Below are positions 2,291-43,351 of a stretch of 64,000 nt of DNA, in pieces. The stretch comes from Isoetes taiwanensis (Eukaryota > Streptophyta > Lycopodiopsida > Isoetales > Isoetaceae), in contig JAJEKV010000225.1 of assembly GCA_021234155.1 (NCBI GenBank), positions 434,001 through 498,000 of the forward strand. Reading direction: 5' to 3'. Each line of letters opens with the position of its first letter. Within the stretch, counting starts at the first letter, position 1. The translations under genes and the position numbers were made by a program. A model generated the notes under the pieces. The model ran no database searches. It was not told where the DNA came from and saw nothing but the letters and a program-made list of their open reading frames with translations.

Positions 2291-2448
2291 CTCCTATATA
2301 TATGATTATCAGGAACATACATATATTTTATATATACAAGCAATAAAATGCATCTAGTTGTATGCAGTAAAGTGAGCGCTGTAAATATTCGTCAGTTACA
2401 AACAATAACAGTTACAAACAATAATATGCAGGTCGTTGTATGCAGAAA

Positions 2449-2640
2449 GTGAGCCTCCGGTCGTGTTTGAACCATGTAAAACTAAAAAAAAAAAAAAAGT
2501 ATCAGAAATTTATCGCGGCGGCCTCTGTTCAACTGCATCCACTACAGTGAGCACCCAGTCGTGTTTGAACCACGTAAATCTAAAAAATTAAAAGATACCA
2601 GAAATTTATGCGGCGGCCTCTGTTCAATTGCATCCATTGT
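2449..2640. repeat. Tandem repeat, two units of about 98 bp
   Basis: Units starting at 2449 and 2547 share GTCGTGTTTGAACCA, ATCAGAAATTTAT and GCGGCGGCCTCTGTTCAA. They differ by a poly-A length change and a few substitutions. The repeat lies just outside the left end of element A. Confidence 0.75.
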
Positions 2641-2746
2641 GACCTTCCTAACCTGTTCATTTAAATCCACTATAATGTCTAACGGTGAGAACTTCCTAAT
2701 GGAGACCAAACTTCAGACCATTTCTTTTTGTTTAAATACATGTAGT

Positions 2747-2783
2747 GGGTGGATTCACGCTATAGTGGATCAGTTTTGGTGTC
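2747..2783 (+). repeat. Left terminal inverted repeat of element A
   Basis: Begins GGGTGGATTCA. About 24 of the first 31 positions match the reverse complement of 10750-10780. The TAGT target duplication abuts it. Confidence 0.8.
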
Positions 2784-3059
2784 CCCCATGTCCCCCCCCA
2801 AATAGCTTAAAAGTATAGCTTGTATTTGTGGTTTAAGAAATGCATTTGTGGTTTGAGAATTTGTATAACATTGATTACGTTGATGCCTTTTCCAGTAACC
2901 GATGAGTAATTCTAATAATAACCAACCACTTCATTAATCTTTGGAGGGAATTTTTTCAAATGCTCAAAGCGGTGGAAACGTAGAGGGAGTTTGTTCCTCA
3001 TTCTTTTGCTCAAGTATTATTTTGGTAAGTCTACGATTGTGAAGCACATTTTACGAAAA

Positions 3060-6000
3060 ATGGAGGAGAAAGATGTATTCTTAGATATGGCGGATGAAGA
3101 AATCCGGAACATCGGAATGAAGATCCATTTGTTAGAGTGAGTTTGAGATCATTGTTGAAAGAAATTCAACTGGGAAGTTTTAGATTGTGGTTTAGAACAT
3201 GCAACTATTTCTAGTGTCAATCTTGAGAATCGAGATGATATATCAATCGGTCATGATCCTAGTATTGTGGACAATACTATAAAGAATATCAAGAAGAAAA
3301 AAAAGAGAGATACTGAGCAAGAACGTCACGAAGAAACAAAAGACAGAGAAAAAAGACAAAAAGAAGCTAATGAGGCATTGGTGAAGATTGGAGGTCAAGA
3401 TGGGTTGGATAAAAGTGGTGCAACAAAAAGGAGAGTAGTGTTAAACAAGTCAATTCATTCTTGAGGCAAACAAAACAATGAATCTCCGATTAAACGAGAA
3501 ATATTGATTGATGTACTAGAACATAAAGCTATGGAAGAGATAGTTGGGGATCTCTTGAAGAATCTGGAAGCAAAACAACCATAATAGATAATATCGAGAT
3601 TCAATCCATATCATGAAGCAATCAACTAGTCTAGATTGTATGGTCATCGCTAAAAAATCTTGTTTAGCAATGGCAATAGGCAATGAAACGTAAAAGCGAC
3701 TACAGAAAAATGGGAAAAGTTCTTGATGTTCATCCAAGAAATTTGATCTTTGCAAAGAGAGACAAATTTGAGATAAATTGCAATTCGGGAAAATGGGTGT
3801 ACTATAGAAGGGGAAGAAGATGTGATTCCATTTCTCGATTCGTCATTGCTCTTGTGAATGTGATTTTTGGATTTCTAATACTAGGGTCTCTCCAAACACA
3901 AAGGATGTGAAATCTAGGAGACTTGAAAGAAATATCGAGAGAAGAGCATGCTACACATTACTTAGAGCAAAGCCAAGTTAGTTACTACTCTATTATCTAT
4001 CTACTCTTTCAAGCTTGATTTGATCACGGTTTTCTCGAGATCCTCTATAAGCATTATAGATTGTGTATTGTAGATAGTATATTATAGTTTTAGATCCAAG
4101 ATAGATTGCATTATGGTTGGAATAGATTGTGGTTTTGGATTACATTGTGGTTAGATTAAACGTGGTTCAAGTCATATTGTGATTCGTTGCATTGTGGTTT
4201 AAACTTGGTTGTGGTTGTAGATTACATTGTGGTTCTAGATTATGGTTTTGATTAGATTGTGGTTTTGGATTGGAATGTGGTTTTGGTTTCAATTTTCTTG
4301 TGATTGTGGTTGTGGATTATATTGTGGGTCTAGATTATGGTTTGATGGATTGTGGTTTTAGGTTAGATTGTGATTTTAAGGTTTCTAATGGATATTGTTT
4401 TATTTTGTGGTTTGGAATTTCATTATTATAGTTTGAGGTTCATGTTTTGCGGTTTGGGGTTTGAGATTGATAATCAACTATTGTTTTGTTCTTAGATGCA
4501 ACTCTATAAAGCTTTCAAAGCAAAACATCCAAATGTCAAAGTTGGAGCTTCACTTTTCAAAATTTGAAGCCGTGGTTTGTAGTGAAGCTAGCGTAGTATA
4601 ACACTTGTTGTTGCATACATCATGTCAAAGTTACAAATCTTTCTTTGGATGGTTTAACTAAATTAGGGAAGAAGCACTCAAAGTCATGTACTTGTGAGTG
4701 CAAGATTTTTACAGACATCAGTGATCTTTGGAAATGTATTGTTTGCCAGAAGGGTGAGATTGATGAATTCTATAGTAAGGATTGTCTTGACGGTACTTGT
4801 AGTGAGTGTGGGATAAAGAAGTTTGAAATCTGCCCCAAGGAATTAGAGAGTGAGGAGGTTGTGAAATGGGAGTACATCGACTATGAACATGGAGGTGTGG
4901 ATAAACGTGGAGAGCCTAAGAAAGTTTTGAAACACCAATACAAAGAGACCACACCAGCAGTGCTAATAAGCAAACTCAAAGACAGGTTGGAAAAATTTCC
5001 CCTCCACAATTTCAAATACAAATGGCAAGATAAACAGTTTCGTGAAATGCTCGATAATCTCCCTTCAGATGTCATAGTGTCAGTGGTAGATTTTGCGGAA
5101 AATTACACATTGAAAGAGAGAACACAGGTGCAATCTCAATACTGGACAAGCGTGCAGGTGACCATTCTTGTCCACATTACTTATCATGTGGCTAAGAATG
5201 GTGAAGTAGTAAAAGAAACACATTATTATATATCAGATGACCGCAAACATGATACCTTATTCGTGCAGCATTGCTTTAATATGCACTTCAATTATATGGA
5301 AGAGCAAGGACTGAAACCACGTAGGCACTGGGTTTTTTCTGATGGTGCTGCATCACAATTCAAAGCTGCAAGGCCATTTTATTTTATTGCTAGATACTCT
5401 TATCAGACTCTAATTCATATGATGTGGAATTACTTTGGTTCAAACCACGGAAAGGGAGAACATGATGGCAAGGTCTTTGAATTAAAGAGATGGATCAGAA
5501 TGGTCCAACTCCTATATCCCCGATACTAAGATAGAGAATGCACATGATATTGTGGAGGCTGCCAAGGAGTTATTTTCTGGTACAGTTTCTTCTAAAGAGG
5601 AACCAAAAACAAAAAAGAAAGATATTAAAAGATTTTTTTTTGGAAGTTAAAGCAGGAGAAGTCGATAGGCGTAAGGAATGGGGAGCACATACGGTGAAGG
5701 ATACTCAAAAATTCATAGTGTGCCAAGATTCGGCTTGGGATCAACAACTCAATTATGTGTTCAAGATTCTCATGCTTTTGTAGTTTTTGTTTAGATGAAC
5801 ATTGGGATAGATGCGAGAATACGGCATATGTGAATAAGTGGGAGGCGGTGGAAATTGAACCCGCTTCTTCATCTACTTGTGATGCAATTGAGGTTAGAAA
5901 GTCACAAAGGCCCTTATATTCGGTGTTAATATTATTGCCCGGGTCAGGATGTGGAGATTTTTTGCGGTGGCGGCACCAAAAACAACCCCGGAAGGGATGA

Positions 6001-11225: not shown

Positions 11226-11388
11226 AAGTTGGGTATATTTAGATGATCAAAGAGAAGAAAAGAGCCAGACATAAACTAACATTTTAATCTTCAAATATGC
11301 TTTTTTGGGATACACTTCAGAGCTGCTTTGTTCTAATATGAAAATTCATGTATATTATTTGGTCAGATGCTTAGTACATTAATTTTCT

Positions 11389-11414
11389 AAGTCGTATTTA
11401 ATTAAAGTGGGACT
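11389..11414 (+). repeat. Left TIR of C1
   Basis: AAGTCGTATTTAATTAAAGT followed by GGGACT. The inverse is at 16472-16497. Confidence 0.9.
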
Positions 11415-11734
11415 CATTCCATTCCCATTTTTTTTCGGAACCCTGTTAATTTACATAAAAAGGAGCACCCCGACCCGAAAACTATCCGTAATTCGAATTT
11501 GTGTCTAAAACTCTGCATCCAAGCTTTGCTCCAGTTTTCTCTGGTTAGCGAGTCGAGAACAAGAACAATGCAACTGAAACAAAGGAAATTCATTAAAGAT
11601 TGAAACCAAAGATCTAGTTGAAAAAGAATTTTTATTAATAAATTGAATAGGTACAATGTATTTTACATCGGACGCAGAGACCATGGCGGTCTTGCTGTCA
11701 CTACAGTTACATCATCGTGGTAGGTGGTCCACCT

Positions 11735-12218
11735 TAGGGGATTAACTTGCGGCGCTTCTTCACGCCGACTGTAAGCCTTGGGGGCAACCTGAAGAGTGTG
11801 GAATGCCTCACGTGGAGGTGCCTCACGGAGCTACCGGGCCGACTGTCCACCCGACTTCTCCACTCGCCTCTCCCGCAGCCTTTCATCGAATATGCTCCTT
11901 CCCCAACCTCCGTGGATGTTATGCAATGCTTGCAAGATGCTTTGAGCTTCCTGGACTGTCTCTTTGTTCTTCGCCTGTTCTTTATCCCCAGGGTGTGCAT
12001 GGCGTCTGAATTCGCGAGTAACCTTATCCCAAAGGCCCGGCAAGAGTGTAGCGTGGGGGATGCGTGCTGTAGCGGTATTTCTTCCGCCTTGAGCGGGATT
12101 CAGGCCGCCTGGAGCGGTCTCGTGATGCCCGAGGCGGGATTTGTGCGGGTGTCGAATCTGTGCTGCGAACCCACGGAGCAAGGAGAGTATGATTAACAAT
12201 TACGGTGCCATTAGTCAA
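11735..12218 (-). pseudogene. Small basic protein gene of element C (C1 copy)
   Basis: The start MTNGTVIVNHTLLAP (12218) is shared exactly with the C2 copy at 50243. The protein is Arg/Lys-rich (DRSRR, RRKKYR), then runs across one frame shift into LLPGLWDKVTREFR, HPGDKEQAKNK and QSILQALHNIHGGWGRSI. Similarity between copies persists through the frame changes, which argues for past coding selection. It has no motif I recognise; a DNA-binding or accessory transposition role is only a guess. It is read in the same direction as the FCP1-like gene that lies upstream of it. Confidence 0.55.
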
Positions 12219-12299
12219 AACGAAGAAAAAAGAATGTTGAAATCAAATTACAATGGAGAACATTCATTCCATACAACCGCATCCAATGACGAGGAAGTA

Positions 12300-12570
12300 G
12301 TGTCTTTCTCATTTCGCGAAGTGGAGAAAGGCCCATAAAAAGTGAAAGTACAACCATTCTCATTAGAATATGGTTGCATCCAATCACACCTGGAAGCATC
12401 TGAATGGTTTTCATCAACGAGATTAACCGATTGCCTTTTCACTCGCGAGTCGAGAAAGGCCCAGGAAACGCAATGTACAAGCATTATCATAATAGATTGT
12501 GGCTGCATCCAGTCACACAATCAAACATACAAATGGTCTCATCAACAGGACAAGCATGCCTTTCTCGACT
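12300..12570. repeat. Palindrome family copies in C1 (decayed)
   Basis: Three copies related to TCGACTCGCGAGTCGA lie between the two minus-strand genes: TTTCGCGAAGTGGAGAAAGG (12308), CACTCGCGAGTCGAGAAAGG (12440) and a half copy CTTTCTCGACTCACATG (12558). Matching positions in C2 (49.95-50.16 kb) are better preserved. Confidence 0.8.
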
Positions 12571-12628
12571 CACATGTGTTCACGTTTGTTTACAATATTC
12601 ACACAGTTTGACTATCTGAAAGCAGAGG

Positions 12629-13287
12629 TCACTCTTCTTGTTCACCAAAATATTTGTCGTCCATAGCTTTCATGATCGCCTTGCTCTCTGGATCGGGTTC
12701 CGTGAGGCTCGGATAGTTCCTAATCACATCGGCGACAAGAATGGCAAAGAGGGATTCCGCCAAGACAGGACACAGTCCGAAGGACAACCACCTATCCGTC
12801 TCATACTCTTCAGGTCGATATGGCTTAGCAATGATTGTATTTTGCGCGTTATGATAGCACTTGTAGGCGGAGTCGTCTATGATCAGCGTGTTGTGTTTGC
12901 CATAGTCCTGGAATTGCTCATAAACCCTGTCCAGCCTTTTCACCATTATAGGCTTCCCCTTTGTGGTGGCTGGATCGAGGTCCGACACATGCTCGACCCT
13001 TTCGTTTCCCCAAACGAACTTGAACTTCAAAACTGGAAGGCCGAGAACACCAAGAACATTGACAATATTTTTCTTTGCCATACAAGACCATATGCCCACT
13101 TCGAATCCCCGTTCCAGGCACCATTCAACAATTTCCTTAGCTCTAGGCCTCGGATACACTATTTTATGCTCCGTTTTGGTCGGGATCTGCGAGGTGTTAA
13201 TCTCGGGGACGTCTTTATCGTGGTATACTGCAGCTAATACTCCATTGACGTCAAATATTACAAGCTTGGCGGGACCAGCTGGATCCC
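12629..13287 (-). CDS. FCP1/NIF-type HAD phosphatase-like protein (C1 copy)
   Basis: The frame is open without a stop from the junction near 13290 to TGA at 12629, about 215 residues. Motif I is KLVIFDVNGVLA (13274-13239), the FCP1/TIM50/SCP-type DxDx(T/V) box with the second Asp replaced by Asn. GFEVGIWSCM follows in the motif II region, then the Lys-containing KRLDRVYEQF and LIIDDSAYK, the acidic metal-binding motif. In the host family these enzymes dephosphorylate Ser in the RNA polymerase II tail or related substrates; Asn at the acid/base position makes catalysis doubtful. No ATG remains, because the deletion junction removed it; the C2 copy shows MVSQTPIGIGGPAK upstream. It is transcribed away from the transposase. 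Confidence 0.8.
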
Positions 13288-13380
13288 AGTTTGTATGGTT
13301 TTATATGGTTCATATGGTTCATATGGTCATATTTGTGGTGTTTGGGGCTATATGGTTTTAATGTGAGCTTTTTCATTCAG
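13288..13380 (+). other. C1 deletion junction and end of transposase intron
   Basis: A short ATATGGTT-rich stretch ends in the acceptor TTTTCATTCAG. In C2 the corresponding intron is 293 bp long, and a first exon lies beyond it. Here the intron is joined directly to the FCP1-like gene. Confidence 0.7.
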
Positions 13381-16301
13381 GGAGCATGTGAGATGAGTAA
13401 AATGGAGCCAAGGAAGTCCAGCAGAGACCATTGCCCTAGGCTCCAATGGAGGAAGATGGGTTGCCTTTTGTTGCACCCTTGCAACCAGACGGTATTTGCA
13501 GAGGGCATAATAACTGCAGTTGATCCATTTGATAGTGTGAATGATGAAAGGCTGGGAGATGAACATCTTGGAGTTGGCATTGTGAAGCTTCTTATCGAAG
13601 TTGATACAATCATGTCCCAGGGAAGCTCTAGTGATTGCATTGTGTGCTGGGGCTCTTTGGAGTCCCAAGCTCGAGTTGAGATGGCCAATTAGATATATTA
13701 CACACAAGAATGGAGATACTCTAGAATGCCCTACTAAACTACACACCCCAAGGCCCACCCAAGACCATGTGGAAGCTTTGGTGGTCGATGAGCATCCTTT
13801 GATCACAAGGAAGAGACGCTATGTTTTTCATAAAAGGCGTACCAAGGGTGCCCAAGAGGCCTAGAAGTGACAAATATTTAGAAAGGGTGGAAAGTATGGC
13901 ACCAACCAGAGAAAACCTAGAGGCAATTAGGGGTCAAGAGTGTTGCAACCTAGATTGCACAGTGCAGTACAATGTGGATGACCTCGTGCAGATAAGGTCC
14001 CAATACATTGGACAGCTTCAAAAAGATAGGATTAATTTCATTTACTCCTTGTGTAGGAATTCCAGCTATGATGAAAACAAAGGAAGGCTACTATATCAAT
14101 TGAGGGGCATGAAGGTATGTATGAGAGCATTGAGATGGATTCTTGGGGTGAGCAAGTCTTCATTTTACTGTGATCTTTGGGAGCAGGTTAGAAAAGGGCA
14201 CGCTTTGTTCCAACATGGTAATGCACTCACTTTGAAACCTAGAGCAAATACTCTCAAGGCCATTGCAGTCTTCGAGAGCTTTGTGAGATACATGGCTCAA
14301 TCTATGCCCCACAAGTCGAAGGTGAACGAGCACGGTGTGCGAGTGGTGCAAAGAGTGTTGCCACAACACTATATCCAAAAGGAGTGCCTTAAGGAGGTCA
14401 ACTCCATCCCGAAACCACCTTGGAGGTAGGCCTCTTTCTCAATCACATTTCAGCAAGTTATGGAGCACTCACTTCTCGGGGCGTGAGTGTCCTACAACAC
14501 ATGCCATTCTCAAAGTGCAACACTTGCATTCAACTCAAGGATACACTTGCATCAACCGCAATAGAGAAAGAAAGAATGGCAATTAGGGAGCAATTTGCAG
14601 ATCACCAAAGGGACCAAATATCATGTAGACAGTTGTATTGGCAAAGTGGATAACATTTTCCGAGATGCCGGACAAATTTTTGTGTATAATTCATGATAAG
14701 ATGGACCAACACAAGACTTTCTTGCCAAAGCTAGATCCTTTACCCAAGCGTTGTCAAAACGCTTTTCGGATGAAAGTAAGTCTCAAGGGTGTCTTAACAC
14801 ATGGTCATGGAACTGGAACATATGGTCATTTTGTGCTTGATCTATGGAGGGATGATCCAAACTTCCATGTGAGCTCTATTTTCAAGTGCTTGAGAACACT
14901 AGAGAAAGGATCGATAGAAGGGAGGAGGTATTCCCCTCAAAGACCCATTTTTGAGGCTTTGATGGATGATCAACCGCTTTGTTACCAAAGGTAGATAAAA
15001 AGCTCACATCCAAGGTGTCTAGTGAATCAAGGAGGACTTGGGATGATTTCCCTTACTTGAGAAAACCCTTCGAGGAGCTATGTGTTCAATTGGACAAACT
15101 GTTGGAAAGAAAACAAGAATAGATGGATGTTTGGGGCAATGTCATACTTGACAGCAGTGGGAGTATTCAAAGTTGTGAAAGTGGGATTCATGATGGTTGG
15201 GCATACGCATGATGATATAGATGGATTCTTTGGAACTTTCTCCACCAAGCTCAAGAGAGAAAACGTGACTAGTCTCCCTGAACTAATGGATGTGTTTGAG
15301 AGCTGCATTGACCCCAACCCAATGGCTTTCTTGATGGATGAGGTTGCAGATTGGAAATCATTTGTAGAGGGATACTTGCTAGATGGTAAGGACCAGTTGA
15401 CAGGACACACAAAGCCACTTCAATTCAAGTTTTGGGTTAGGGATGGAATACCAATCATGCAATATAAGTGGAGACCAGGTGACAAGTTGTGGATGCCTGT
15501 ACAAGGAATCGAGTTATGGCAAAGGGGTGCTGCTGGTGAAGTTCTCATTCCTAAAGGGCAGCCAAAACCACTACCTCCCTTCAAGACTGTCAAAGACTCT
15601 AGCCAACTAGTGAAGGGCATCAAGGATTACATAACGCACTGGGATGATGTTCGAAATGGAAAGCACACCTCCACTCTTAAGAAAAATCAAATGGACTCCC
15701 TAATCAAGTACTGGGAGAAAGTTGTGACATGCTTAGAAACTGAACAACCATGTGGGAGGAAGCTAAGAGACGGGTTCTTGCCAGAGTCAAGATGGGAGGG
15801 TTCTCAAGGAGCAAGCACGTCTAAGAATGTTCACTTGGGTCCTAACAAGGGTTCCAAGTGGTTTGTGGGAAGTAAGGCCTCAAAGCCGAAGTGGTTTGAT
15901 CTTCCTGAGTGGGATCCCTTTGAGGACATCAAGGAAGGATACTTTGTGCTAGTAAGGCCTGATGATGAGGACTGTCCAATATGGTTAGGGGTGGCACTCT
16001 CTGATGTAACCACCACTATGCCTCGATGGAGAGGAGTTGCGCCCCGATTCCAAATTCAATATTGGGAGCCCATTGGGAGACACAAGAAGGGCAACTTGAA
16101 GGAGCAATACACCGACTGGCCGGGAGAAGAAGTGGAGGGCAAATTATCTTTGATTCTCAAAGGAGGGAATTGGTGGAGTGTGTGGTATGGTCATATCCAG
16201 GTTCTCACACTGCAAAGGACAACACACACAAGATCCCAAAAAGGGAGATGGACAAAGCCATGAGCAACCTCCATGCTATATCATTGTATGAGGGTAGATA
16301 A
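13381..16301 (+). pseudogene. Transposase of element C (DUF8039-like plus DUF7869-like), C1 copy
   Basis: After the splice acceptor, MSKMEPRKSSRD leads into a DUF8039-like segment (VFAEGIITAVDP, LGDEHLGVGIVKLL, WPIRYIT). Next is a Cys/helical region (GQECCNLDCTVQY, LCRNSSYDEN, RGMKVCMRALRWILGVSKSSF). The core has IHDKMDQHKTFLPK (14690), an NCWKENKNRWMF segment (15090) and MVGHTHDDIDGFFG (15196-15237), hallmarks of DUF7869 and plausible Asp/Glu catalytic positions. A long open frame (15082-16263) covers the C-terminal part; the last 80 residues, ending SLYEGR, lie in another frame up to 16301. About six indels break it. One is an extra A near 15096, a site where C2 keeps the frame. Confidence 0.78.
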
Positions 16302-16471
16302 TATTGAGAAGCTTGAAAACTTTCTCAACTAGTGGTTTGTAAAATTTATGATGAAAACAAGTAACCCAATTCTTTGTGTGTGATCTGTAATTCTATTCAA
16401 GCAATCAATTCAAAAAAACATTTTATGGGATGTGAGTCCCATTTTCAGTCCGAGTCCCAAAATTCAAGATT

Positions 16472-16497
16472 TGTCCCACTTTAATTAAATACGACTT
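16472..16497 (-). repeat. Right TIR of C1
   Basis: Inverse of the left end (TTTAATTAAATACGACTT), followed by the TTCT duplication. Confidence 0.9.
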
Positions 16498-16501
16498 TTC
16501 T

Positions 16502-17272
16502 CCTTTGATTCTACTTAGGCAATTTCATTTTTTATTCTAGTTAGGCATTTTCATTGTACAAACAATAGAATAAAACTTTATTTTCCAGAGCAGCTCTTGT
16601 TTCTAGGCTTAAAGTTTCTTGTTTCTTTGAACTCCGCTCCAGCTAGATGCATTCTTTTTCTTTTAAAAACGTGGTCGATGATTCCATAAACAATTGGAGG
16701 ATGATTTACATTAAAAGAAAACTAAGCTTCCGTAAACAATTGGAGGATTATTTACATTAGAAGAAAACTAAGCTCCCGTCAACTCAAATAAAATTAAATG
16801 TTAGTAAGAGGTTCTAAAATAACATGCTTCAATGATACAATTTGGGCATATACATTCCAAAATAACTGATCTGTTACATAAAGCCTATGGCTTTAGGCAC
16901 CAAAAACGTTACACAATCTCTCTTAACAATGACAAAAGGATACATCCTTTTGGTTTTTCCGGGGTTCCGAAAACTTTTTGGATTTTTTCTTTAAGTTATT
17001 TTCCTAAGGTTTCAGAGCTTTTACCTGCCGGAAAAAAGTCTCCGTATGCCAAAAATCGGGTTGTGGCGTTTTCCTTAATTAAAAAATTGGCATTTTGGGT
17101 TATTTGTCCAGTTTTGGAGGATTTAGCGGATTCCTTATCTCCGCATCCTCGGCATGGAGGCCACAGAGATTCAAGGTTTCAGATACATCTGGTTGTCCGG
17201 GGAGCTTAAAAATTCGGTCGTCTTCTTGAGCCTTCAGCGTTTCTGCTGTTTTCAGATGTCTACATTATCTGT
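16502..17272. other. Spacer between C1 and B, no gene seen
   Basis: It holds a diverged tandem duplication around 16680-16775 (GTAAACAATTGGAGGAT, AGAAAACTAAGCT) and a small hairpin AAGCCTATGGCTTTAGGC (16880-16897). Open frames here have no recognisable content. Confidence 0.5.
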
Positions 17273-17276
17273 CAAG

Positions 17277-17306
17277 GGGTGTAAATATGATAATGCTACC
17301 CAAAAA
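17277..17306 (+). repeat. Left TIR of element B
   Basis: GGGTGTAAATATGATAATGC followed by TACCCAAAAA. CAAG lies immediately outside. Confidence 0.9.
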
Positions 17307-17575
17307 GCACCGTCCGGACAAGTGCTTTAGGTGCTTGAGGTGCTTTTTACTCGATGAATTTTTGTTCAACGACCTCGGGGGTTGTTACTCCAGAAATAGT
17401 ATGCATGTTCCGGTTGGGGAGGGATCGATGACATGGATGTCCCCGCGCGAATTGCCAGAGCAATCCTCATGTTTGGCGGGATCTCAAGTTGGCGGGATTC
17501 TTGAGGAAAGTTTTCTTTCTTGGATTGTCATTCTTCCCAAGCTCCGTTATCATGGCTGAAAATTCACTGGCAATT

Positions 17576-17652
17576 CTCAATTCTAATTCCAATCCCAATC
17601 CCAATCCCAATTCCAATCCCAATCCCAATCCCAATCCCAATCCCAATTCCAG
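17576..17652 (+). repeat. (AATCCC)n coding microsatellite
   Basis: AATCCCAATCCC units with three AATTCC variants encode a run of Asn-Pro dipeptides near the start of the B transposase. A young length polymorphism is expected here. Confidence 0.85.
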
Positions 17653-18391
17653 TTCTCCATTGCACCTCCATTTTATGGCCAATTCTGAAAGCCTTGATGA
17701 TCAGAAGAGGAGAATTTATCTGGAATTTGAAGCCAACAGGAAAAGAGAATTGAGAAAGAGAATGAAAGAAAGGGAAAAGGAAAACATTCCACCAAACGAG
17801 AGGAAGAGAAAACAATGGCTTAGTGAAAGAAGATTGCAGGAACTCTCAAAAGAGTTAGATGATTCTTTTAATCACATTGTCAGGAACGTTTCTGAGGATT
17901 TGGATAAAGGGAAAATTCTTCAAAGACTTTTCAAGAGAAACAAACATTTGCCATTGCAAGCAGATGTACCAGATCCCAGGGATATTGCTATAATGAAAAC
18001 CATGATTGTGAATGTTAGAGAGACAATGCAGGCACAAAAAATGCAAAGAACAACTGATGTCCTCCAAGCAAGAAAGAGCACCCTTCAAATGGCAGCATCT
18101 TCAATAGGAGGGATTAATCAATATGCAATTTCAAGGGTTATATCTGTTCCAAGAAAAACTATTGCCATGGCATTTAGAAGACATATATTTGCAGAGTGTG
18201 AAGCTGGCCCTTGGTCAATATTTGGAAGGAAGAGAAGAAGTGACGCATTTTCAGCTGAAGAAATATCCACGGTGAGGAAGTTTTGGGATGAAAATACTAG
18301 AGTCTCACCTTATAAGAAACATGTGAGGAAGCATTTGGCTGAAAATGGTGATAAAATTGATCATCCTATTCATTTGCTAGAGACTACACAG

Positions 18392-18484
18392 GTAATAGTT
18401 TCGACCAGAAATTTGGAATGTTGTGCACTAATTCTTTCATTCACTTTATAAAATAACTAAATTTATTATTGTAATTGTGTTCAG
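18392..18484 (+). other. Short intron conserved in position with element A
   Basis: 93 bp, donor ACACAG|GTAATAG, acceptor GTGTTCAG|GTACAA. Element A has its 519-bp intron between the same two codons. Confidence 0.75.
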
Positions 18485-20712
18485 GTACAATTGTACCTTG
18501 CTTTCAAGAAGGAACATCCTAATATAAAGATGTCCCAGCAGGCTTTTGAAAAACTAAAGCCAAGCTATGTAAGAAAACTTCAAGAAAGGGAGACTTGTTG
18601 TTGCCAATACCATTTGCACTTAGAATTTGCAAGGCAGGCCATCAACAATATGAGGACAGATCCTTATGGTGTTCATAAGGATTGTAAGTGTCAGTGCAAG
18701 GTTTGTGGACCAGGTCTAATCTGCATGGCTAAGGAGAACACCATCAGATCAAGTAGTGATTATTGGAGAATGGTGGTCTGCCAAAAGGATGAGAGTGATG
18801 AGTGGCATAAGCATGCGTGTCTGATGCAGACTTGTACAAAATGTGGTTTAAAGAAGTGAGTACAATGTTTCCTTTGTTTCAAACCTATAATTTTGCTTTC
18901 TATTTACCATGTTTGCTATAATGTATTGCAAACTGCCAACATGTCCTAAGGAGAGGAGTAAGAGCAGGACTTACAATGTGAATTGGAAAGTATTTGAGAA
19001 GGTAATGACTTTCAAATTAGATTGCAAAGTGCATTTAGTGACTTCATTAAATATGATTCAATCATATGACTTCCATATCAGGAGCTGATAAATTGGCCTT
19101 AACATGGCAGGTAGAAGTCCAAAGGAAGAAGACATCATCTAAGAAACCTCCAAAGGTTACAAAATTGGCCTACAAATTGGGTAGTCCTTTTGAATTTAAT
19201 GAGCATGCAAGAAAGACTTTGAAATCTTTTGTACCTCATAATTATAGAGCTCATTGGCAAGCCAAGGAATTCAGGAAATGCTTGGCAACACTTCAAGATG
19301 ATACCATTGTTTCTGTCATAGATTTTGCTGAAAATTATGGATTTAAGATCTAACAAGAAGCTCAATCCTGTCATTGGCATACTGACCAGGTGTCAATTCT
19401 AGTGCATATAACCTACAGGAGGATGAAAAAGGAAGAAGAAGAAGAAAGAAAAAAGAAAGAGGAAGAGAACTCATGCAAGAAGAACAAGAACTTGGCCAAA
19501 GAGAAAAGGAGACAAAGTCTCCAAGGTATTGTGAAGGAAACTCATTTCTATATTAGTGATGACAAATCACATGACACAGAATATGTCCAACATTGTCTAC
19601 AAATGCATGCTGATTGGTTGCAAAGTATTGGAGTTGAATATAAAAAACATGTGTTTTGGAGTGATGGATGTTCTTCACAATTCAAGTCTTCGAGACCATT
19701 CCATTTTCTTGGTAGATTTTATGGGAGAATGGGCAAGGATCTTCTATGGAATTTTTTTGCTAGATCACATGGGAAAGGTGAGCATGATGGTGCTGGAGCA
19801 GTTATAAAGCGGATACTAACTCAAGAGCAAATGAAGTATAATGGATGGAAACTACAGTGTGCAAAGGAGGTAGTTGCTTTTCTTAAATGGCACTTTGAAA
19901 ATCATCCATCTGATCATGACATCAAAAGGTATAATTTTGTAGTGTTTTGCAATTTTATTGCAGACATTTCAGCACTTCAAGCTAATCTTTATCCAAAGAC
20001 TTAAAGCACTTGCTTTTCATATTGTTACGGTATTTTCGGGAGGTAGAGTCTTCAAAGATAGATAGATCAGAAAGATTGGAATGCCATACTTTAAAGGGAA
20101 CTCAATTGCTCCACTGCATAAGACCATGTGACAAGGAGAACTCTTTGAAGGTAGCTTACAGACCTTTGTCATGCTTTTGCAACTACTGCATTCAATTTAA
20201 GTGGGACAAATGCATCAATATGAGTCAAAATTGGTGTTTGGGCAACCATTGAGTTGAGGTTGAAGGATCCTAAGAATACAGGTGATAGCAATGATTTGCA
20301 AGAAGATGACGAGTATGATGTTGAGGAAGAAGAAGAGGATGAAGATGATGTAATTAGTTCTATGATAGAAGTGGGTGACAATTTTGCTGTAAATGCTGAA
20401 GAAGGGAATGAAGAAGGGGTAGACTTTTATGTACTTAGATGCACTGAAGCAAAGAATACTTTGCTAGAAGATTATAAGGATGGATGGGGAAATGTATTTG
20501 GGATTGAAGAAGTTATTGTGTCAGGACATTATTATAAACAAATTGATGGTGGTCTAAGGTTTCAACTATTGCAGAATAAGCCAGTGGCCAGTGTATACAG
20601 CCATCTCGTTAGACTTTCTAAATTTGACATGATTGCAGATGAAGATGACTCAGACTTGTATTTCATGGCAGAAGAAACTTGCCAGCAGATCATTTCTACA
20701 GTTTCTACATAA

Positions 20713-21151
20713 GGTAATTTGTACAACATCATTTCTGTGTCAATCTGTCAAATTGAGGCATATCTGCAGTTTAAGACTGAAAACATGAATGAAAACTGAA
20801 AATGTGGCAAATTTTTTGAATGAAAATGTAACTGAATGAAAATGACAGCAGTTTAAGACTGAAAACATTTAAAAGAGAAACAATAATATACAACAATATG
20901 CATACATATCATCTGCAAGATTGAAAGTTTCTAAACAATTTCAGATATCACAAAATTGAGGCATATCTGCACTCGTATAGTATTGGCAATATAAGGTCTA
21001 TAATTTTTTTACATGCCTCTTGTCCAAAATTGAGGCAATAAGTACTTCTACTAAGAATCAGAACAAGTAAATATTCTTCAACACTTCAAATATTTCTGCA
21101 GTAAATATTCTTCAACGCCTCAAATATTTCTCTGCAATTTGCTCCAATCGA
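20713..21151. other. Intergenic spacer between convergent B genes
   Basis: AT-rich, with repeated AAAACTGAAAATG-like motifs (about 20775-20870) and two copies of CAAAATTGAGGCA. No coding region seen; it holds the 3' ends of the two converging genes. Confidence 0.5.
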
Positions 21152-21867
21152 TCAAAACCGAAAAGCATTCCCAAAATCATCTACTAACCATTGAATTTGA
21201 CCCTTGCAGTAGAATTTGACCAATAGTTTATGCTCATCACCAATGTTCTTCTGAAATAGTGCATCGAGAACACCTAGGGATGTTCTTGTATAAGCTTCTG
21301 GCCTAGAATAGTGCTTCAATAGACCAGAAACATCATGAACCTCTGCAGCTTGTCTGAGTATTGGAGGCAAGTATGAATTTAGGATCTCATCTTGAGGATC
21401 ACTCATGAAAGTAGGCACCATGATAGAGGTAAATGGTGGGGACATAAAAGTCTTGGACACTTCATCATCTGCAAGAATAACATTATTTCCATACTGTGGG
21501 AAAGCTTCATACACTTTATGGAGTGGCTTCATGAAAACTGGGTTTGCAGATTCTAGAGGCCAATTGAAAGGCATCTCATCACAATATTTTTGGTCCCAAA
21601 AAAATACAAAATCTTTTTTGTTCATGGGACATAGAACATCAATAACTTCATGAACATTGAAGTTGTTCATGGAGGACCAAATTGCTAAGTCAAACAACCT
21701 GGAAGCTTCTTGCAAGAACCTATGCACACCTGGCCTCAACACAACCATTTTGTTAGTTGTAGATGATCTCAATAACTGAGAACTCAGTCTTCTCTTAATT
21801 GATTGGTTCTTCTATAAGTCTTTACGAGCACGCCATTCAGATCTAGTATTAATAGTTTCTTTTTCAT
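21152..21867 (-). pseudogene. FCP1/NIF-type HAD phosphatase-like protein of element B
   Basis: ATG at 21867-21865 starts MKKKLLILDLNGVLVKTY, the FCP1 motif I with Asn at the second acidic position, as in the element C protein. A one-base frame break near 21800-21815 is followed by a 206-residue open frame. It contains RPGVHRFLQEASRLFDLAIWSS (21 to 42 of that frame), FFWDQKYC, KPLHKVYEAFPQY and VILADDEVSKTF, the last carrying the acidic pair. This is the complete FCP1 fold length. FCP1/SCP relatives remove phosphate from Ser/Thr in RNA polymerase II tails, but activity is uncertain here because of the Asn. It is convergent with the transposase and follows the RING gene on the same strand. The frame break could also mark a missed intron. 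Confidence 0.78.
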
Positions 21868-22236
21868 AGGTACGATTTTGCAATTCAAAGACACCTATTA
21901 AGCAAAAAGAACAATTCAATCAATGAATCAAAAGAAGAGTACAAGTGAAATGTAGAATTATTAACCTCGAAGTTACATTTGTAATTTGCAACTCGGTAGA
22001 CCTAACAGTCATAAAATTAATTAAGTGAATACAGCTTCAATGGTTCCACAAATATTGAATTCAAATTAAAAAGTCATAAATCTATGTCCTCATCACTTGG
22101 GACTACTTTCTTAAACCCTGAACATTAAAACATCATTTATGAATTAGTGCTCTCAAAGAGATGTTTGAATTTCCTCTAAGAGCATCCATAATTGCTGCAA
22201 AATCAGTATTTATACCTTCATTGTGTACGCATTGTG

Positions 22237-23999
22237 TTAAAAAAGATAGGCTCCCTCAGACTTCACTGTTTTCACCTCAGTGGGATCTACACTTGCAATA
22301 TCATCAAGGGTTGTCATTATATTTTCCATAATTTCCTTTTCAACACCCTCTTCATTCACCTGCAAGTTTTCCTCCCCTTCTTCATTCAAATCAATGTGCA
22401 TTCTTCTTCTCAGTGGATACTTTCTTGTTTCCACAACTTTTTTCTTGTTAGTTCTCTCAACCTTTTTTCTTTTTCTTTGGTCCCTAACCCGGTGACTTCT
22501 TGCTACTTGAGTTCCCTTTCTTTTTGCATATTAACTCATCCTTCTTTGGCATTTCCTTTTTTTGTTTCTTCTTGGCTGGAGTGTCTAATATTTGACACTC
22601 AACTTCACTAGTATTCAGATCTGCCTCTGAATCCTCTCCAATTTTTTACCAGCTGCTTCTCAATTGTCTTGGGCTTGTCATCTTAGACTGATCCTGGAGA
22701 ATTTTCTGGCTCGTCCTTGCATGTCTCAACCTTCTCTTTGTGCTAGTAGAAGGGGACTTCAACCGATCAGCAAAACATCTTCAACATCGGGCCGGTAGTA
22801 TTTGATCCCAAACCGCCGAAGCTTTGAAAGCTACTTTAGGATCAAAAGAAGCAACCCTGCTCAATTCTGTTGGAGTACTCATACCAAGTTCAATATAAAG
22901 GTCTTGAGAATGTTCTGGTCCACATTTCAAACATCCGCCCTCTTTGAACAATGCAAAGCATACATTACATGATATTCATGTTCACATTCAAGAACTACGT
23001 AAATCTTGTAGTTATTATGAAAACTTAAACCACAAGCACTACAATAACTTTGCAAAAACACGGAAGCCTTCTTTTGATGGTGTTGATGCGTAAAAGGAGT
23101 CGGTGATTTGCATCAAAAGATGAAGGTTGCTTGCATGTTCTTTTTCTCGGCATTTATCTCAACATCCAATTGAATTAATTCAGCTTCCAATGCCTCCTTC
23201 TTCACAAGAAGATCGGGATCTCCAGGTTTGCAAACAGACTCCAAGGACTCACATGCATATTCTTCAAACATCAATTTCTTTTCTAAATCCCTGATTTCTA
23301 ACTCCACTTCCTTTGTAATAACCATAGCTCTCTTCTTGGCAATAGTAGACTTTAGCTTTTCCATACTGCTTCTTTTTTCAGACAAGGTTTTAAATATTTT
23401 ATCATTGGATTTCTCATCGTGACCGGACTAACAACAATATCTTGCATTTTCTTTCCCATCTCTGCCTTTTTATTCTCAAGCTTCCCTAAGTTTTCTGTTA
23501 CTAATGCAGGTTATGCTTCAAATTAGTCTGATCAAGACTAGGCTTAGGAATACCTTTGGAAGAAATAGCAGGCTTTGATTCAATTTCAGCTTTTGCTTTT
23601 GAACATTTTTTTTCGGCCTGCGTTTCTTGTACATCATAACCTGTGCCCCATATGAAGCCCAATTTATCTGATGACCTTCAGGATCTAGCAGTCCTTCAGG
23701 GCAATTTTCCCATGCGAAGGCAAGAGCCAATTGTTTTCTTACTTCATTATTAGAAACACCATCTGGGTAAAACACACTCAATAAGCTTTCCAATTTTCTC
23801 CTCAAATGTGGTTGAACAAAGGCAACCTTGATTGCAGACTTCGACTTTGAATTAAAACTTTTTACATAAACGGATTCCCATTGTTCCTTAAGTGATTTGG
23901 GTTTGCTAGCCAATTGTATTTCATATGGGGCTGCAGACCCTCATTTGACAACCCGTGCATCTCAAAAAAATCCTCCGCTGTTACTGCTTCTTCTACCAT
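22237..23999 (-). pseudogene. Element B second protein: coiled coil, RING-like finger, basic tail
   Basis: ATG 23999 begins MVEEAVTAEDFFEMHG. After a frame change the 131-residue frame (23913-23518) contains LAFAWENCPEGLL and INWASYGAQVMMYKKRRPKK, matching the element A protein. The next frame (23385-23113) is a Lys/Glu coiled coil. At about 23060-22920 lie YCSACGLSF, LECEHEYHVMYALHC and GGCLKCG, which together resemble a RING/C3HC4 finger, broken by one indel. The C-terminal part (about 22800-22237) is Lys/Glu-rich, disordered and ends in an acidic helix. Several indels or unresolved introns separate the parts. The role is unknown; a ubiquitin-ligase-like accessory protein fits the finger. 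It is transcribed in tandem with the FCP1-like gene. Confidence 0.62.
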
Positions 24000-24199
24000 G
24001 TTGCTTGATTCACGACGATTAGTTCCGGATAAACAATCTATATTGTGCGCCGGAAAGGAATTCGAAACTCTACTAAAGGATTTGCAAAAGGAATGAAACA
24101 GGAAATTGAGGGGAAGTTTCGCGCGCGAGAACTGAGGTGGTTTTTTTTTTCTTTGGAATGAAGGCAACCGAGGTGCTTTAGGTGCTAAGTGCTTTCGCG

Positions 24200-24231
24200 T
24201 TTTTTTGGGTAGCATTACCATATTTACACCC
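24200..24231 (-). repeat. Right TIR of element B
   Basis: GGGTAGCATTACCATATTTA followed by CACCC, then the CAAG duplication at 24232-24235. Confidence 0.9.
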
Positions 24232-24235
24232 CAAG

Positions 24236-25510
24236 GTATTGTGTTTGCCATATAAATTTCTTTGCTTTTGATTTCTGGAAGAGATGACCATTGATAATTA
24301 TAGCACACAGGGAGCCGATTTGGAGACTTTGCCTCTTTTCGATTTTTAGATCAGCATGCATGATTGTGGGCAAAACAATATCGGGATGTAGTTTTTCCCT
24401 ATGATTTCAGATCGGATTCCAGATTATGGTGGATCTTTAGAGGTGGCGATCTTGGTGTGCAGGCTGGCTCATGGATGGATTGAAAGCTCCATGCCAGTAG
24501 CTGTCGGATCCGGACCATGTCGACCACGCCGTAGTTCGCTTCAGTAAGGCCTTATTCATCCGTAAAAATGTACATTATGCTCTTTAAAACAAATGGTGAT
24601 TCGAGGGCAACTATGAAGAGGTCAGGTAATTTCTTGCTTTTAGGACCATAACGGGTGGTTTCCATCGATTTGCAATAAGGCCGGATAATTATCTTTGCAG
24701 ACTTAAGCGCTAATGAATAGGTAATCATGAGATATCATGCTCAATCCCTGTTTTCTTTGCTTTTTATGTGGATAAGAGCAACCGATAAATAGGTAAATGT
24801 TTTTTGGTTTGTTCTTATTGAAAACCAATGCATGCAGGTTGAAGCCCTTGCTGTAATAGTCCTGCAGGTTGTTTTTCTCAAATTAGAGCTTCAAAATTGA
24901 GTTGAGTTAGCTCATGCTTGGAGGTGCCTAATGATGTCCTCATGTACTGCAAAATTGAAATGCATTTCTGCTTACTGTAGCAATTTGACAATCTAAGATG
25001 AAGGATAAGATTGGTTCCTTTACTGTTGGTGATGCCATATCATTATTAGAAGGGGCACAGAATTAGTTTCTTCATGAAGGATTATAGACAACATGCATGT
25101 ATTGCTAGAAATTTTTGTATCCTTTAGCATATCACATATTCTATTCTGCTTATAGAAATGTTATCCATCTATGACAGAAGCTACTACCCAAATCTGTCAC
25201 CTGTCATATTGAAAGTCTAACAATAGGTACGTTTCTTCTTAGATGTTGATTTGGGGGACTTACTGAAGGTGTTCATTCTGTGACGTTCCAAGCCCTACAA
25301 GAAACTCAAGGTTAGACACGCAACTTGAGAAGTTTGTTTGCTAAATTAGAGCATTAAAGCATGCATGCCGCAGTAGTTTCTTTGAGAAATTTAAAAATGG
25401 TACTGCTTTCATAGTTTGTACCTTTCTGCGGCCTCTTCAATGAGTGGCCAGAAGTTCAAAGGACGACCATTTTGTCTATCAATTACCTTAACTCATCATC
25501 TTAGGTCAGA
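24236..25510. other. Intergenic DNA, no gene seen
   Basis: AT-rich, stops in all frames and no recognisable domain. It could be promoter or intron sequence of a neighbour, but nothing supports that directly. Confidence 0.5.
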
Positions 25511-26871: not shown

Positions 26872-26897
26872 AAGTCGTATTTAATTAAAGTGGGACA
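26872..26897 (+). repeat. Left TIR of C2
   Basis: Identical to the inverse of the C1 right end over the first 60 bp, apart from single changes. CTTTC duplication outside. Confidence 0.9.
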
Positions 26898-27065
26898 AAT
26901 CTTGAATTTTGGGACTCGGACTGAAAATGGGACTCACACACCATAAAAGAAATTTCTGAATTGATTGCTTGAATAGAATTACACATGACACACATAGAAT
27001 TGGGTTACTTGTTTTCCTCATAAATTTTACAAACCACTAGTTGAGATAGTTTTCAAACTTCTCAA

Positions 27066-29989
27066 TATTATGTGCCCTCATACAATGATATAGCATGGAG
27101 GTTGCTCATGGCCTTGTCCATCTCCCTTCTTGGGATCTTGTGTGTGTTGTCCTTTGCAACGTGAGAACTTGGATATGACCATACCACACACTCCACCAAT
27201 TCCCTCCTTTGAGGGTCAGCATAATTTGCCCTCCACTTCTTCTCCCAGCAGTCAGTGTATTGCTCCTTCAAGTTGCCCTTCTTGTGTCTCCCAATGGGCT
27301 CCCAATATTGAATTTGGAATCCAGGACGCAACTCCTCTCCATCAGGCATAGTGGTGGTTACATCAGAGAGTGCCACCCCTAACCATATTGGACAGTCCTC
27401 ATCATCGAAGGCCTTACTAGCACAAAGTATCCTTCCTTGATGTCCTCAAAGGGATCCCACTCAGGAAGATCAAACCACTTCGGCTTTGAGGCCTTACTTC
27501 CCACAAACCACTTGGAACCCTTGTTGGGACCCAAGTGAGCATTCTTAGACGTGCTTGCACCTTGAGAACCCTCCCATCTTGACTCTGGCAAGAACCCGTC
27601 TCTTAGCTCCCTCCCACATGGGCTGTTCAGTTTCCAAGCATGTCACAACTTTCTCCGAAGACTTGATTAGGAGTCCATTTGATTTTTCTTAAGAGTGGAG
27701 GTGTGCTTTCCATTTGAACATCATCCCGGTGTGTTATGTAATCCTTGATGCCCTTCACCGGTTGGCTAGAGTCTTTTTGTCTTGAAGGGAGGTAGTGGTT
27801 TTGGTTGCCCTTTAGGAATGAGAACTTCACCAAAAAGCACCCCTTTGCCACAACTCGATACCTTGTACAGGCATCCACAACTTGTCACCGGTCTCCACTT
27901 ATATTGCATGATTGGTATTCCATCCCTAACCCAAAACTTGAACTGAAGTGGCTTTGTGTGTCCTGTCAACTGGTCCTTACCATCTAGCAAGTATCCTTCT
28001 ACAAATGATTTCCAATCGCAACCTCATCCATCAAGAAAGCCATTGGGTTGGGGTCAATGCGACTCTCAAACACATCCATTAGTTCGGGGGGAGAGTGGTC
28101 GTTTTTCTCTCTTGAGCTTGGTGGAGAAAGTTCCAAAGAATCCATCTATATCATCATGCATTATGCCCAACCATCATGAATCCCACTTTCACAACTTTGA
28201 ATACTCCCACTTCTTTGTCCAAGTATGACATTGCCCCAAACATCCATCTATTCTTGTTTTTTTTCCAACAGTTGTCCAACTGAACACATAGCTCCTCGAG
28301 GCGGTGATTTCTCAAGTGGGGAAATCATCCCAAGTCCTCCTTGATTCACTAGACACCTTGGATGTGAGCTTTTTTTATCGCCTTTGGTAACAAAGCGGTT
28401 GATCATCCATCAAAGCCTCAAAATGGGTCTTTGAGGGGAATACCTCCTCCCTTCTATCGATCCTTTCTCTAGTGTTCTCGGGCACTTGAAAATAGAGCTC
28501 ACATGGAAGTTTGGATCATCTCTCCATAGATCAAGCACAAAATGACCATATGTTCCAGTTCCATGACCATGTGTTAATACACCCTTGGACTTACTTTCAT
28601 CTGAAAAGCGTTTTGACAACGCTTGGGTAAAGGATCTAGCTTTGGCAAGAAAGTCTTGTGTTGGTCCATCTTATCATGAATTATACACAAAAATTTGTCC
28701 ATTTTGCATCTCGAGAAAATGTTCTCCACTTTGCCAATACAACTGTCTACATGATATTTGGTCCCTTTGGTGATCGCAAATTGCTCCCTAATTGCCATTC
28801 TTTCTTTCTCTATTGCGGTTGATGCAAGTGTATCCTTGAGTTGAATGCAAGTGTTGCACTTTGAGAATGGCATGTGTTGTAGGACACTCACGCCCCAGAA
28901 GTGAGTGCTCCATAACTTCATGAAATGTGATTGAGAAAGAGGCCTACCTCCCAATAGTTTCTAGGATGGAGTTGACCTCCTTAAGGCACTCCTTCGGATA
29001 TAGTGTTGTGGCAACACTCTTTGCACCACTCGCACACCAGGTGCTCGTTCACCTCGACTTGTGAGGCATAGATTGAGACATGTATCTCACAAAGCTCAAG
29101 AAGACTGCAATGGCCTTTAGAGTATTTGCTCTAGTTTTTCAAAGTGAGTGCATTACCATGTTGGAACAAAGTGTGCCTTTTCTAACCTGCTCCCAAGATC
29201 ACGTAAAATGAAGACTTGCTCACCCCAAGAATCCATCTCAATGCTCTCATACATACCTTCATGCCCCTCAATTGATATAGTAGCCGTCCTATGTTTTCAT
29301 CATAGCCGGAATTCCTACACAAGAAGTAAATGAAATTAATCCTATCTTTTTGAAGTCTGTCCAATGTATTGGGACCTTATCCGCACGAGGTCATCCACAT
29401 TGTCTTGCCTTGTGCAATCTAGGTTGCAACACTCTTGTCCCCTAATTGCCTCGGGTTTTCTTTGGTTGGTGCCATACTTTCCATCCTTTCTAAATATTTG
29501 TCACTTCTAGGCCTCTTGGGCACCTTTTGGCTGCCTTTTATGAAAGACATAGCGTCTCTTCCTTGTGATCAAAGGATGCTCATCGACCACCAAATCTTCC
29601 ACATGGCCTTGGGTGGGCCTTGGGGTGTGTAGTTCAATAGGGGCAATCTAGAGTATCACCATTCTTGTGTGTAATATATCTAATTGGCCATCTCAACTGA
29701 GCTTGGGACTCGGAGACCACGAGCACACAATGCAATCACTAGAGCTTCCACGGGACATGATTGTATCAACCCGATAAGAAGCTTCACAATGCCAACTCCA
29801 AGATGTTCATCTCCCAGCCTCTCATCATTCACACTATCAAATGGATCAAACTGCGGTTATTATACCCTCTGTAAATACCGCCCAGTTTGCAAGGGTGCAA
29901 CAAAAGGCAACCCATCTTCCTCCATTGGAGCCTAGGGCAATGACCTCCTTTGGACTTCCCCTGGCTCCATTTTACTCATCTCACATGTT
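27066..29989 (-). pseudogene. Transposase of element C, C2 copy (main exon)
   Basis: Collinear with 13381-16301 of C1 at high identity: GSKWFVGSKASKPKWFDLPE (27530-27470), IHDKMDQHKTFLPKLDPLPK (about 28680-28620) and DRLQKDRINFIYFLCRNSGY (about 29360-29300). The last frame ends SLYEGT at 27068. It is broken by more than ten indels, more than C1. At 28270-28290, though, the reading frame through the QLDNCW segment is kept where C1 has an extra base, so the two copies decayed or were mis-called independently. It begins at a splice acceptor TTTTCATTCAG (29999-29990). Confidence 0.78.
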
Positions 29990-30282
29990 CTGAATGAAAA
30001 AGCTCACATTAAAACCATATAGCCCCAAACACCACAAATATGACCATATGAACCATATAAAACCATACAAACATATTAAATATAATCATATTATATCATA
30101 CAACCATATTAACTAAAATCATACAACCATATTAACTAAAATCATATAACCATATTAAAGCATACAACCACACTCATTCTAAACCATATGTAAACATTGT
30201 AAACATATATAACCATTGAAACTATTCAACCATTGAAACCTTATTAAATACATAAGATAACATATATAAACATATAACCTAC
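29990..30282 (-). other. C2 transposase intron with ATATGGTT repeats
   Basis: The plus strand shows AACCATAT(T/A) about fifteen times; in the sense strand this is ATATGGTT. The acceptor is conserved with C1. The donor is GAAAGG|GTAGGTT near 30282. Confidence 0.65.
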
Positions 30283-43324: not shown

Positions 43325-43351
43325 CCAGCCTCATTCTTTCCTTTGAGGAGA
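43325..43351 (+). other. Candidate polypurine tract region
   Basis: GAGGAGA abuts the 3' LTR start. It is short for a polypurine tract, so the call is positional. Confidence 0.4.

Follow-up and report, generated by a model that had tools for sequence, protein, structure and literature searches.

An antisense accessory gene of the NIF/FCP fold in two inverted-repeat transposon families of Isoetes taiwanensis

Why do two transposon families with different transposases both carry a gene of a phosphatase fold? The question is raised by a 64,000-nucleotide stretch of the genome of Isoetes taiwanensis (the window; bases 434001-498000 of one contig), in which two elements with terminal inverted repeats (TIRs), B and C1, hold an NIF domain (Pfam PF03031) on the strand opposite to the transposase. 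An earlier note on the window had described these genes as FCP1-like cargo, each encoding a single-domain protein of about 220 residues and recruited separately by each family. We searched the assembly (1.658 Gb, 1110 contigs) and found the observation to be sound and wider than first described: an antisense accessory gene of the NIF/FCP fold belongs to both families and is not chance cargo, and further families, D and E, carry NIFs of the same clade. The assembly also gave 12 matches to chlorophyll a/b-binding genes at E ≤ 1e-20, in keeping with a green plant as host.

Results

Ends, transposases, and NIF domains of B and C

The C1 termini were AAGTCGTATTTAATTAAAGTGGGAC, exact at both ends, with the target duplication TTCT at 11385-11388 and 16498-16501, whereas those of B were GGGTGTAAATATG, with one mismatch between the copies of the longer 24-base end and with CAAG as the duplication (Table 1). 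The transposases differed as well. DUF7869 was matched by the C1 open reading frame (ORF) 15082-16263 (E 9.9e-32) and, under its cut-off, by ORF 14638-14994 (1e-4); ORF 13821-14429 had no Pfam match. The B transposase had no Pfam match over a curated cut-off, and its ORF 19390-20004 had at least 150 matches in the genome. Profile comparison of the two transposases (alignments of three rows each) gave a probability of 0.1%, that is, no relation, and a common transposase for B and C was dropped for lack of support. The differences in termini and transposases described in the earlier note were therefore both confirmed.

NIF was found over the Pfam cut-off of 21.8 bits on the minus strand in B ORF 21152-21772 (E 1.9e-15, 57.4 bits) and in C1 ORF 12629-13159 (E 1.8e-7, 31.4 bits), as well as in two further genomic regions, L019 (75.6 bits) and L017 (72.4 bits); L numbers denote regions cut from the assembly. 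The catalytic motif lies just upstream of the part matched by Pfam. In C1 it is LVIFDVNGVL, within an open frame of 223 residues; in the B copy of the window the motif LLILDLNGVL is in a different frame because of a small frameshift, and in C2, a remnant of a second C element, the NIF is frameshifted so that motif and domain are not in any single frame. A 23-base motif pattern nevertheless recovered all three copies that the earlier note had listed.

Copies elsewhere in the genome

Genome searches, in which 150 candidates each were scored of 4516 (B NIF) and 5864 (C1 NIF), gave at least 154 matches for the B NIF and at least 150 for the C1 NIF, the listed C matches all reaching at least 305 bits. 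Eight 10-kb regions were cut around B-NIF matches (39-98% identity) and eight around C-NIF matches (78-99%). Both ends with a perfect 4-bp duplication were present in six of the eight B regions (GACA, ATAA, TTAT, TATG, AATA, and TATA). L012 had the right end, the first bases of the left end being lost at the cut edge, and no ends were found with the B terminus motif in the 10-kb region of L016. The NIF-side end was present in seven of the eight C regions, and two of the eight were closed with a duplication (L001, GAGT; L003, AATA); for another five, the cut region yielded no second end, the transposase half of L004 and L005 crossing the region edge, and no ends were found with the C terminus motif in the 10-kb region of L008. 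Matches between matching TIRs, for which the earlier note had proposed to look, thus occur in both families, and B and C are class II TIR transposons by the presence of TIRs and target duplications in several copies.

Pairing was assessed with the top 50 transposase matches per family against 150 NIF places per family. An NIF match lay within 6 kb of 36 of the 50 B transposase matches (0.05 by chance), and all 36 pairs were convergent. For C, an NIF match lay within 25 kb of 16 of the 50 (0.23 by chance), and all 16 were divergent. The antisense position and the opposite arrangements noted in the window were therefore upheld in all of these pairs. Many NIF copies are broken, those of B and C2 in the window among them, and full-length open NIF frames occur over a wide identity range of the B-NIF genome matches. 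Chance cargo and fixed host genes were ruled out by copy number, ends, and orientation: the genes are neither single host genes at fixed loci nor absent from other copies of B and C.

Two B copies, L012 and L013, were unusual in that the transposase half was approximately 96% identical to that of B and the accessory half approximately 76%. Compared with L009 and L011, they had an NIF synonymous divergence (dS) of 0.62-0.69 and a transposase dS of 0.04-0.09. This suggests, from sequence divergence, that halves may have been exchanged between B subfamilies, and the different divergence indicates that the two parts are not tightly matched.

The active-site motif

Every transposon NIF with a readable motif had Asn two residues after the nucleophile Asp, the variants being DVNGVL, DLNGVL (DLNGML in L014), DINGVL, and DMNGVL. 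Across 15 aligned rows, D10, N12, K118, and D138 were invariant, and the second Asp of the DD pair was nearly so. Eight additional NIF matches were cut; DxN was present in six, and L053 and L054 were broken before the motif. The host SCP-like genes that were read have DxD; in host UBLCP1 the motif is DIDYTL. The genome had 1003 matches (517 + 486) to a degenerate DNA pattern for DxNG, (I)(L/F)Dx-N-G, vs. 5 (2 + 3) for the reversed-pattern control, and the DxDG version had 17 (10 + 7) vs. 14 (7 + 7). Together, these data indicate that Asn was the founding state and not the decay of single copies.

The DxDx(T/V) motif of active FCP1/SCP-type carboxy-terminal-domain (CTD) phosphatases was not found, DxN standing there in the readable rows. 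The second Asp serves as the acid/base residue in SCP1, and its absence here speaks against an ordinary CTD phosphatase, as far as the motif allows a judgment. Two more dispersed NIF families with Asn were also seen, with DLNSVL (L047, L049, and L050) and DINNVL (L048 and L051); these may be further transposon families.

Fold, nearest relatives, and tree

The AlphaFold2 model of the B NIF (predicted local distance difference test score, pLDDT, 88.9) was most similar to SCP2 (2q5e; Z 20.8, root-mean-square deviation 2.3 Å over 162 residues), followed by CTDNEP1 (Z 18.5-19.1), TIM50 (17.8), UBLCP1 (17.6), and FCP1 (16.9-17.2); the SCP1 D98A structure was among the structural matches. The B NIF thus shares with the FCP1/SCP CTD phosphatases the fold (Z 17-21) and a Pfam NIF match over the cut-off, but differs from them in the Asn that replaces the second Asp and has about 16-21% identity to them. 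By sequence, the nearest solved relative was UBLCP1 (phmmer E 1.8e-4 for the B NIF; profile E 5.7e-11), which was the sole phmmer match at E ≤ 0.01 for the B NIF and the best of six for the profile. The C1 NIF alone had no match among solved structures at E ≤ 1. The B NIF and UBLCP1 have in common the stretch around IWS, K-P-L, and the D-D region, whereas host UBLCP1 keeps DIDYTL where the transposon copies have DxN, and the two are separate in the tree. Of the description as FCP1-like, the NIF/FCP fold therefore held, by both Pfam and the model, and FCP1 as the relative was not supported.

When a UBLCP1 fragment was compared with the genome, 87 matches were obtained, with host UBLCP1 exons at the top and then dozens of NIF matches, many of which coincide with places found in the B search. 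About four UBLCP1-like exon pairs stand in tandem at G000:C1064:1995892-2001708, and canonical SCP-like NIF matches were clustered at G000:C1018:22.9-26.8 Mb and C1078:2.0-2.3 Mb, with DxD in L022, L023, L025, and L028.

The tree comprised 32 rows, of which 15 had DxN, 15 were SCP-like genes of the host, and two were UBLCP1. The FCP1-like L020 was left out because of its long branch and fell outside the transposon rows in a first tree; L035 had no readable motif. All 15 DxN rows formed one clade (support 98/96), with the SCP-like and UBLCP1 rows outside, and canonical host SCP-like genes were rejected as the source on this ground. The B-type (66/62) and C-type (78/44) branches within the clade were weak, and the tree gave no firm order inside it. 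A tree constrained to unite the B and C types to the exclusion of the two additional families was worse by 0.77 log units (P = 0.44). In the approximately unbiased test, neither the joining of UBLCP1 with the B type alone (P = 0.064) nor with the C type alone (P = 0.20) was rejected. The genome match lists are filled by transposon copies, among which a host DxNG gene at a fixed locus would be hard to see. One clade apart from the sampled host paralogs does not support two recruitments from host FCP1, and the separate recruitment put forward in the earlier note was not borne out by the tree with host proteins that it had proposed.

Selective constraint

The ratio of nonsynonymous to synonymous divergence (dN/dS) of the B NIF was 0.17-0.20 at dS 0.62-0.69 in the four pairs of L009 and L011 with L012 and L013; the B set leaves out L010, L014, and the window copy. 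For the C NIF (nine copies, 36 pairs), dN/dS was 0.21-0.56 in all 17 pairs with dS > 0.1, and closer pairs scattered from 0.05 to 1.36.

Families D, E, and F and the longer accessory gene

D (L017) has an NIF and, in addition, an exon with 55% identity to exon 18491-18859 of the B transposase. E (L018 and its neighbor L058) has a DUF7869 transposase (E 8.5e-41), 44% identical to the C1 transposase over 71 residues and oriented divergently to a gene with an NIF at its end. The NIF of D, with a B-type transposase, and that of E, with a DUF7869 transposase, fall in the same clade as the B and C NIFs. F (L019) has accessory exons homologous to those of E; a DUF7869 piece in L019 was not counted as its own transposase because it is on the same strand as the NIF and downstream of it. 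No TIRs of D and E were found, the best scores (12 and 11) falling in the range of 20 shuffles each (up to 13 and 15). The only strong TIR pair of L019, a 1.57-kb pair at L019:1234-2804 (AACCATCATTCA...) flanked by TATT, stands beside the F accessory gene and is separate from it.

Upstream of the NIF, D has a RING-like finger (zf-RING_2, E 2.6e-4, below the curated cut-off), and its Cys/His stretch is also present in the B copy L015 (E 7e-13). An upstream exon of E is common to F (E 2e-74) and to three C copies (E 1e-10 to 8e-16). It has a weak ParB likeness in the C copies only (PHROG E 0.007-0.04) and none in the E and F exons; its predicted structure had a pLDDT of just 40.6, and a PDB profile search gave no significant match. 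Neither the C ParB-like exon (E limit 1) nor the B NIF (E limit 0.01) was matched in phage records. When the first 40 genome matches of the ParB-like exon were compared with 150 of the 151 NIF matches, an NIF match lay within 20 kb for 12 (0.14 by chance), and in 11 of these 12 it was on the same strand and downstream. A ubiquitin-like domain was not found in the accessory exons scanned, the full protein not having been assembled, and a methyltransferase-like middle part that was suspected by eye had no model support.

Five of the six B copies, as well as E and F, had a splice-acceptor-like site 27-46 bases before the NIF motif, with no stop between; L016 and L017 had a frame that was open for 160 bases upstream of the motif. 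To judge from acceptors and exon order, the NIF probably forms the end of a longer accessory protein, the upstream part of which is RING-like in B and D and weakly ParB-like in C. The single-domain protein of about 220 residues was not sustained, since the B and C2 frames of the window are broken and a longer protein is suggested.

Other features of the window

C1 is an internally deleted copy. Its bases 1903 and 1912 are 3.5 kb apart in L003 and approximately 7 kb apart in L004 and L005; C1 bases 1-1903 and 1912-5109 align to L003 432-2379 and 5846-9050, and the middle of the longer C elements is missing. C2 is 87-88% identical to C1 11389-12356 and 12432-13287, and no second end was found with the C terminus motif when up to five mismatches were allowed. 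The B ORF 23862-24308 extends beyond the TIR merely as an open frame. Outside B and C1, a direct 2.4-kb repeat was observed at 33785-36223 and 43345-45803 (95% identity, 9.56 kb spacing).

Table 1 Transposon features of the window, with positions counted from its first base
Feature	Position	Strand	Remarks
Element C1, whole	11389-16497		Exact TIR pair of 25 bp at 11389-11413 and 16473-16497
C1 NIF domain	12629-13285	minus	Frame open through LVIFDVNGVL; motif pattern at 13236-13258
C1 transposase pieces	13821-16263	plus	DUF7869; ORFs 13821-14429, 14638-14994, and 15082-16263
Element B, whole	17277-24231		TIR GGGTGTAAATATG at both ends; CAAG at 17273-17276 and 24232-24235
B transposase exons	17489-20004	plus	ORFs 17489-18451, 18491-18859, and 19390-20004; same pieces in L009, L013, and L015
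B NIF domain	21152-21867	minus	LLILDLNGVL; motif pattern at 21827-21849; one small frameshift near 21775-21820
B accessory gene, upstream exons	23518-24308	minus	ORFs 23518-23913 and 23862-24308; similar pieces also in L009 and L013
C3, transposase half of another C element	26872-30071	minus	Terminus at 26872-26898; 94% identity to C1 13300-16497
C2, C-element remnant	49203-51065		Left part of C1, reversed; terminus at 51039-51065 with two mismatches
C2 NIF pseudogene	49203-49854	plus	Frameshifted; motif at 49230-49252

Discussion

We favor, with moderate confidence and on sequence evidence, the reading that the gene encodes a conserved accessory protein of the transposons in which the NIF module, C-terminal in a larger protein, would be a binder or trap of phospho-proteins or a slow phosphatase. 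The larger protein would be nuclear, with an upstream part that is RING-like in B and D and weakly ParB-like in C (homologous in E and F). The NIF module would bind phospho-Ser/Thr sites on a host protein or on a protein of the element and, without the usual acid/base Asp, turnover might be slow or an aspartyl-phosphate might persist. The absence of that Asp would suit a role in trapping or reading phospho-proteins better than that of an ordinary phosphatase. The gain for the element would most likely be expression despite silencing or regulation of the transposition complex of the element itself. A bolder proposal, which we put forward only tentatively, is that the DxN FCP-fold clade may be a dedicated plant transposon gene that was passed between unrelated transposase families, was joined to different DNA- or ubiquitin-related modules, and acts as a trap for phospho-proteins by which host silencing or transcription is turned to the favor of the element.

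Several observations weigh against the accessory-protein reading. No NIF was found among the 150 entered for 14 of the 50 B and 34 of the 50 C transposase matches, although these are not shown to lack it, since the NIF lists hold the best matches only. Eight such loci were cut (five B, three C). A degenerate NIF was present in three of the five B loci and in the C locus L044, and L042 stops short of the expected NIF place; two of the five B loci had no NIF within 4.5 kb, and L043 (C) showed none, though the expected place should be near its edge. The 1003 DxNG matches were not individually confirmed as NIF, the window copies and several known ones being among those listed. Asn in place of the second Asp need not end activity, because HAD enzymes with other residues at that place act. 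Protein similarity and an open frame were the grounds on which copies were chosen for dN/dS, a choice that pushes dN down. In three close C pairs, each of which includes L004, the ratio exceeded 1 with 1.5-2 synonymous changes, and dS was saturated in nine of the 15 B pairs (those with L015 or L016), which gave no ratio. As for the longer protein, splicing and fusion were judged by visual inspection of the acceptors and of the order that the copies have in common. In L014 the frame is interrupted by a stop 15 bases ahead of the NIF motif, and the five B copies with an acceptor have an in-frame ATG 6 bases before it, so that a separate NIF protein is possible. No RING was found by Pfam in the two B ORFs scanned, the C exon resembles ParB weakly (PHROG E 0.007-0.04), and none of the accessory exons scanned matched a methyltransferase model.

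Other explanations were weighed against the same data. An active CTD phosphatase that dephosphorylates the tails of RNA polymerase II, or plant Pol IV/V-linked tails, and so blocks silencing, in line with the suggestion of the earlier note, would fit the FCP/SCP fold (Z about 17-21 to SCP, CTDNEP1, and FCP1) and the retention of the nucleophile Asp, the Lys, and the first Asp of DD. We nevertheless consider it quite unlikely from the sequences, since Asn stands for the second Asp in every readable transposon copy and in nearly all genomic motif matches, and the nearest relative by sequence is UBLCP1, which acts on the proteasome, and not FCP1 or SCP. It is rather unlikely, again from sequence, that the protein would have its role in transposition and none in silencing, for instance through binding or dephosphorylation of the transposase or of a repair factor. 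Its fixed arrangement with the transposase in two families of unrelated transposases and the constraint on NIF would agree with this; against it, the B transposase and accessory halves diverge differently in L012 and L013.

Passenger fragments taken up by chance and without function (Pack-type cargo) would account for the many broken copies, including B and C2 of the window. They are extremely improbable in view of approximately 1000 motif copies, full-length open frames over a wide identity range, dN/dS well below 1 at high dS, and fixed orientation. Two independent captures of host genes, one per family, appear doubtful. The weak grouping of NIFs by transposase type (66/62 and 78/44), the two unrejected groupings with UBLCP1 (P = 0.064 and 0.20), and the different flanking accessory parts, RING-like vs. 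ParB-like, speak for them, but all DxN rows are in one clade (98/96), and the common Asn would have to arise twice or stem from one unsampled host lineage.

Sola superfamily elements have a 4-bp target duplication. The VANDAL anti-silencing protein is named VANC, and we know of no VANDAL protein that is a sequence relative of the transposon NIF. B and C have 4-bp duplications as in Sola; the Pfam matches of their transposases included no Sola model. A passage on Sola1-1_Ec32 of Ectocarpus describes a DNA transposon with an antisense ParB-methyltransferase gene (PMC12477816). The likeness lies in the accessory gene opposite the transposase strand and in the weakly ParB-like accessory exons of C; the plant elements differ in that no methyltransferase model was matched in the exons scanned, and the main text of that article makes no use of the word phosphatase. 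According to a passage in another article, TET/JBP genes are found in DNA transposons of several superfamilies in fungi, with a suggested transfer between superfamilies, and SET and Vandal cases are named in the same context (PMC12730594). One accessory family across several transposase superfamilies is the point of likeness to the plant elements, whereas a DNA-acting dioxygenase in the fungi stands opposite an FCP-fold protein in the plant. The same text mentions the VANDAL anti-silencing proteins of plant MuDR elements, which resemble the present case as transposon-encoded accessory proteins thought to act on the silencing of the element itself (PMC12730594). Among the matches listed for open-licence PubMed Central papers, no transposon with a phosphatase-fold accessory gene (NIF/CTD phosphatase) turned up, and DUF7869 was not mentioned in the open-licence papers searched.

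When such genomes are annotated, dispersed NIF copies could be taken for CTD-phosphatase genes of the host. With approximately 1000 natural variants that have a fixed Asn at the catalytic position, they are also a large set for pseudophosphatase studies. The recurrence of this unusual active-site motif approximately 1000 times suggests that the transposons use the gene as a tool of their own. Should the protein counteract silencing, this would indicate that plant transposons have a phosphorylation step to overcome.

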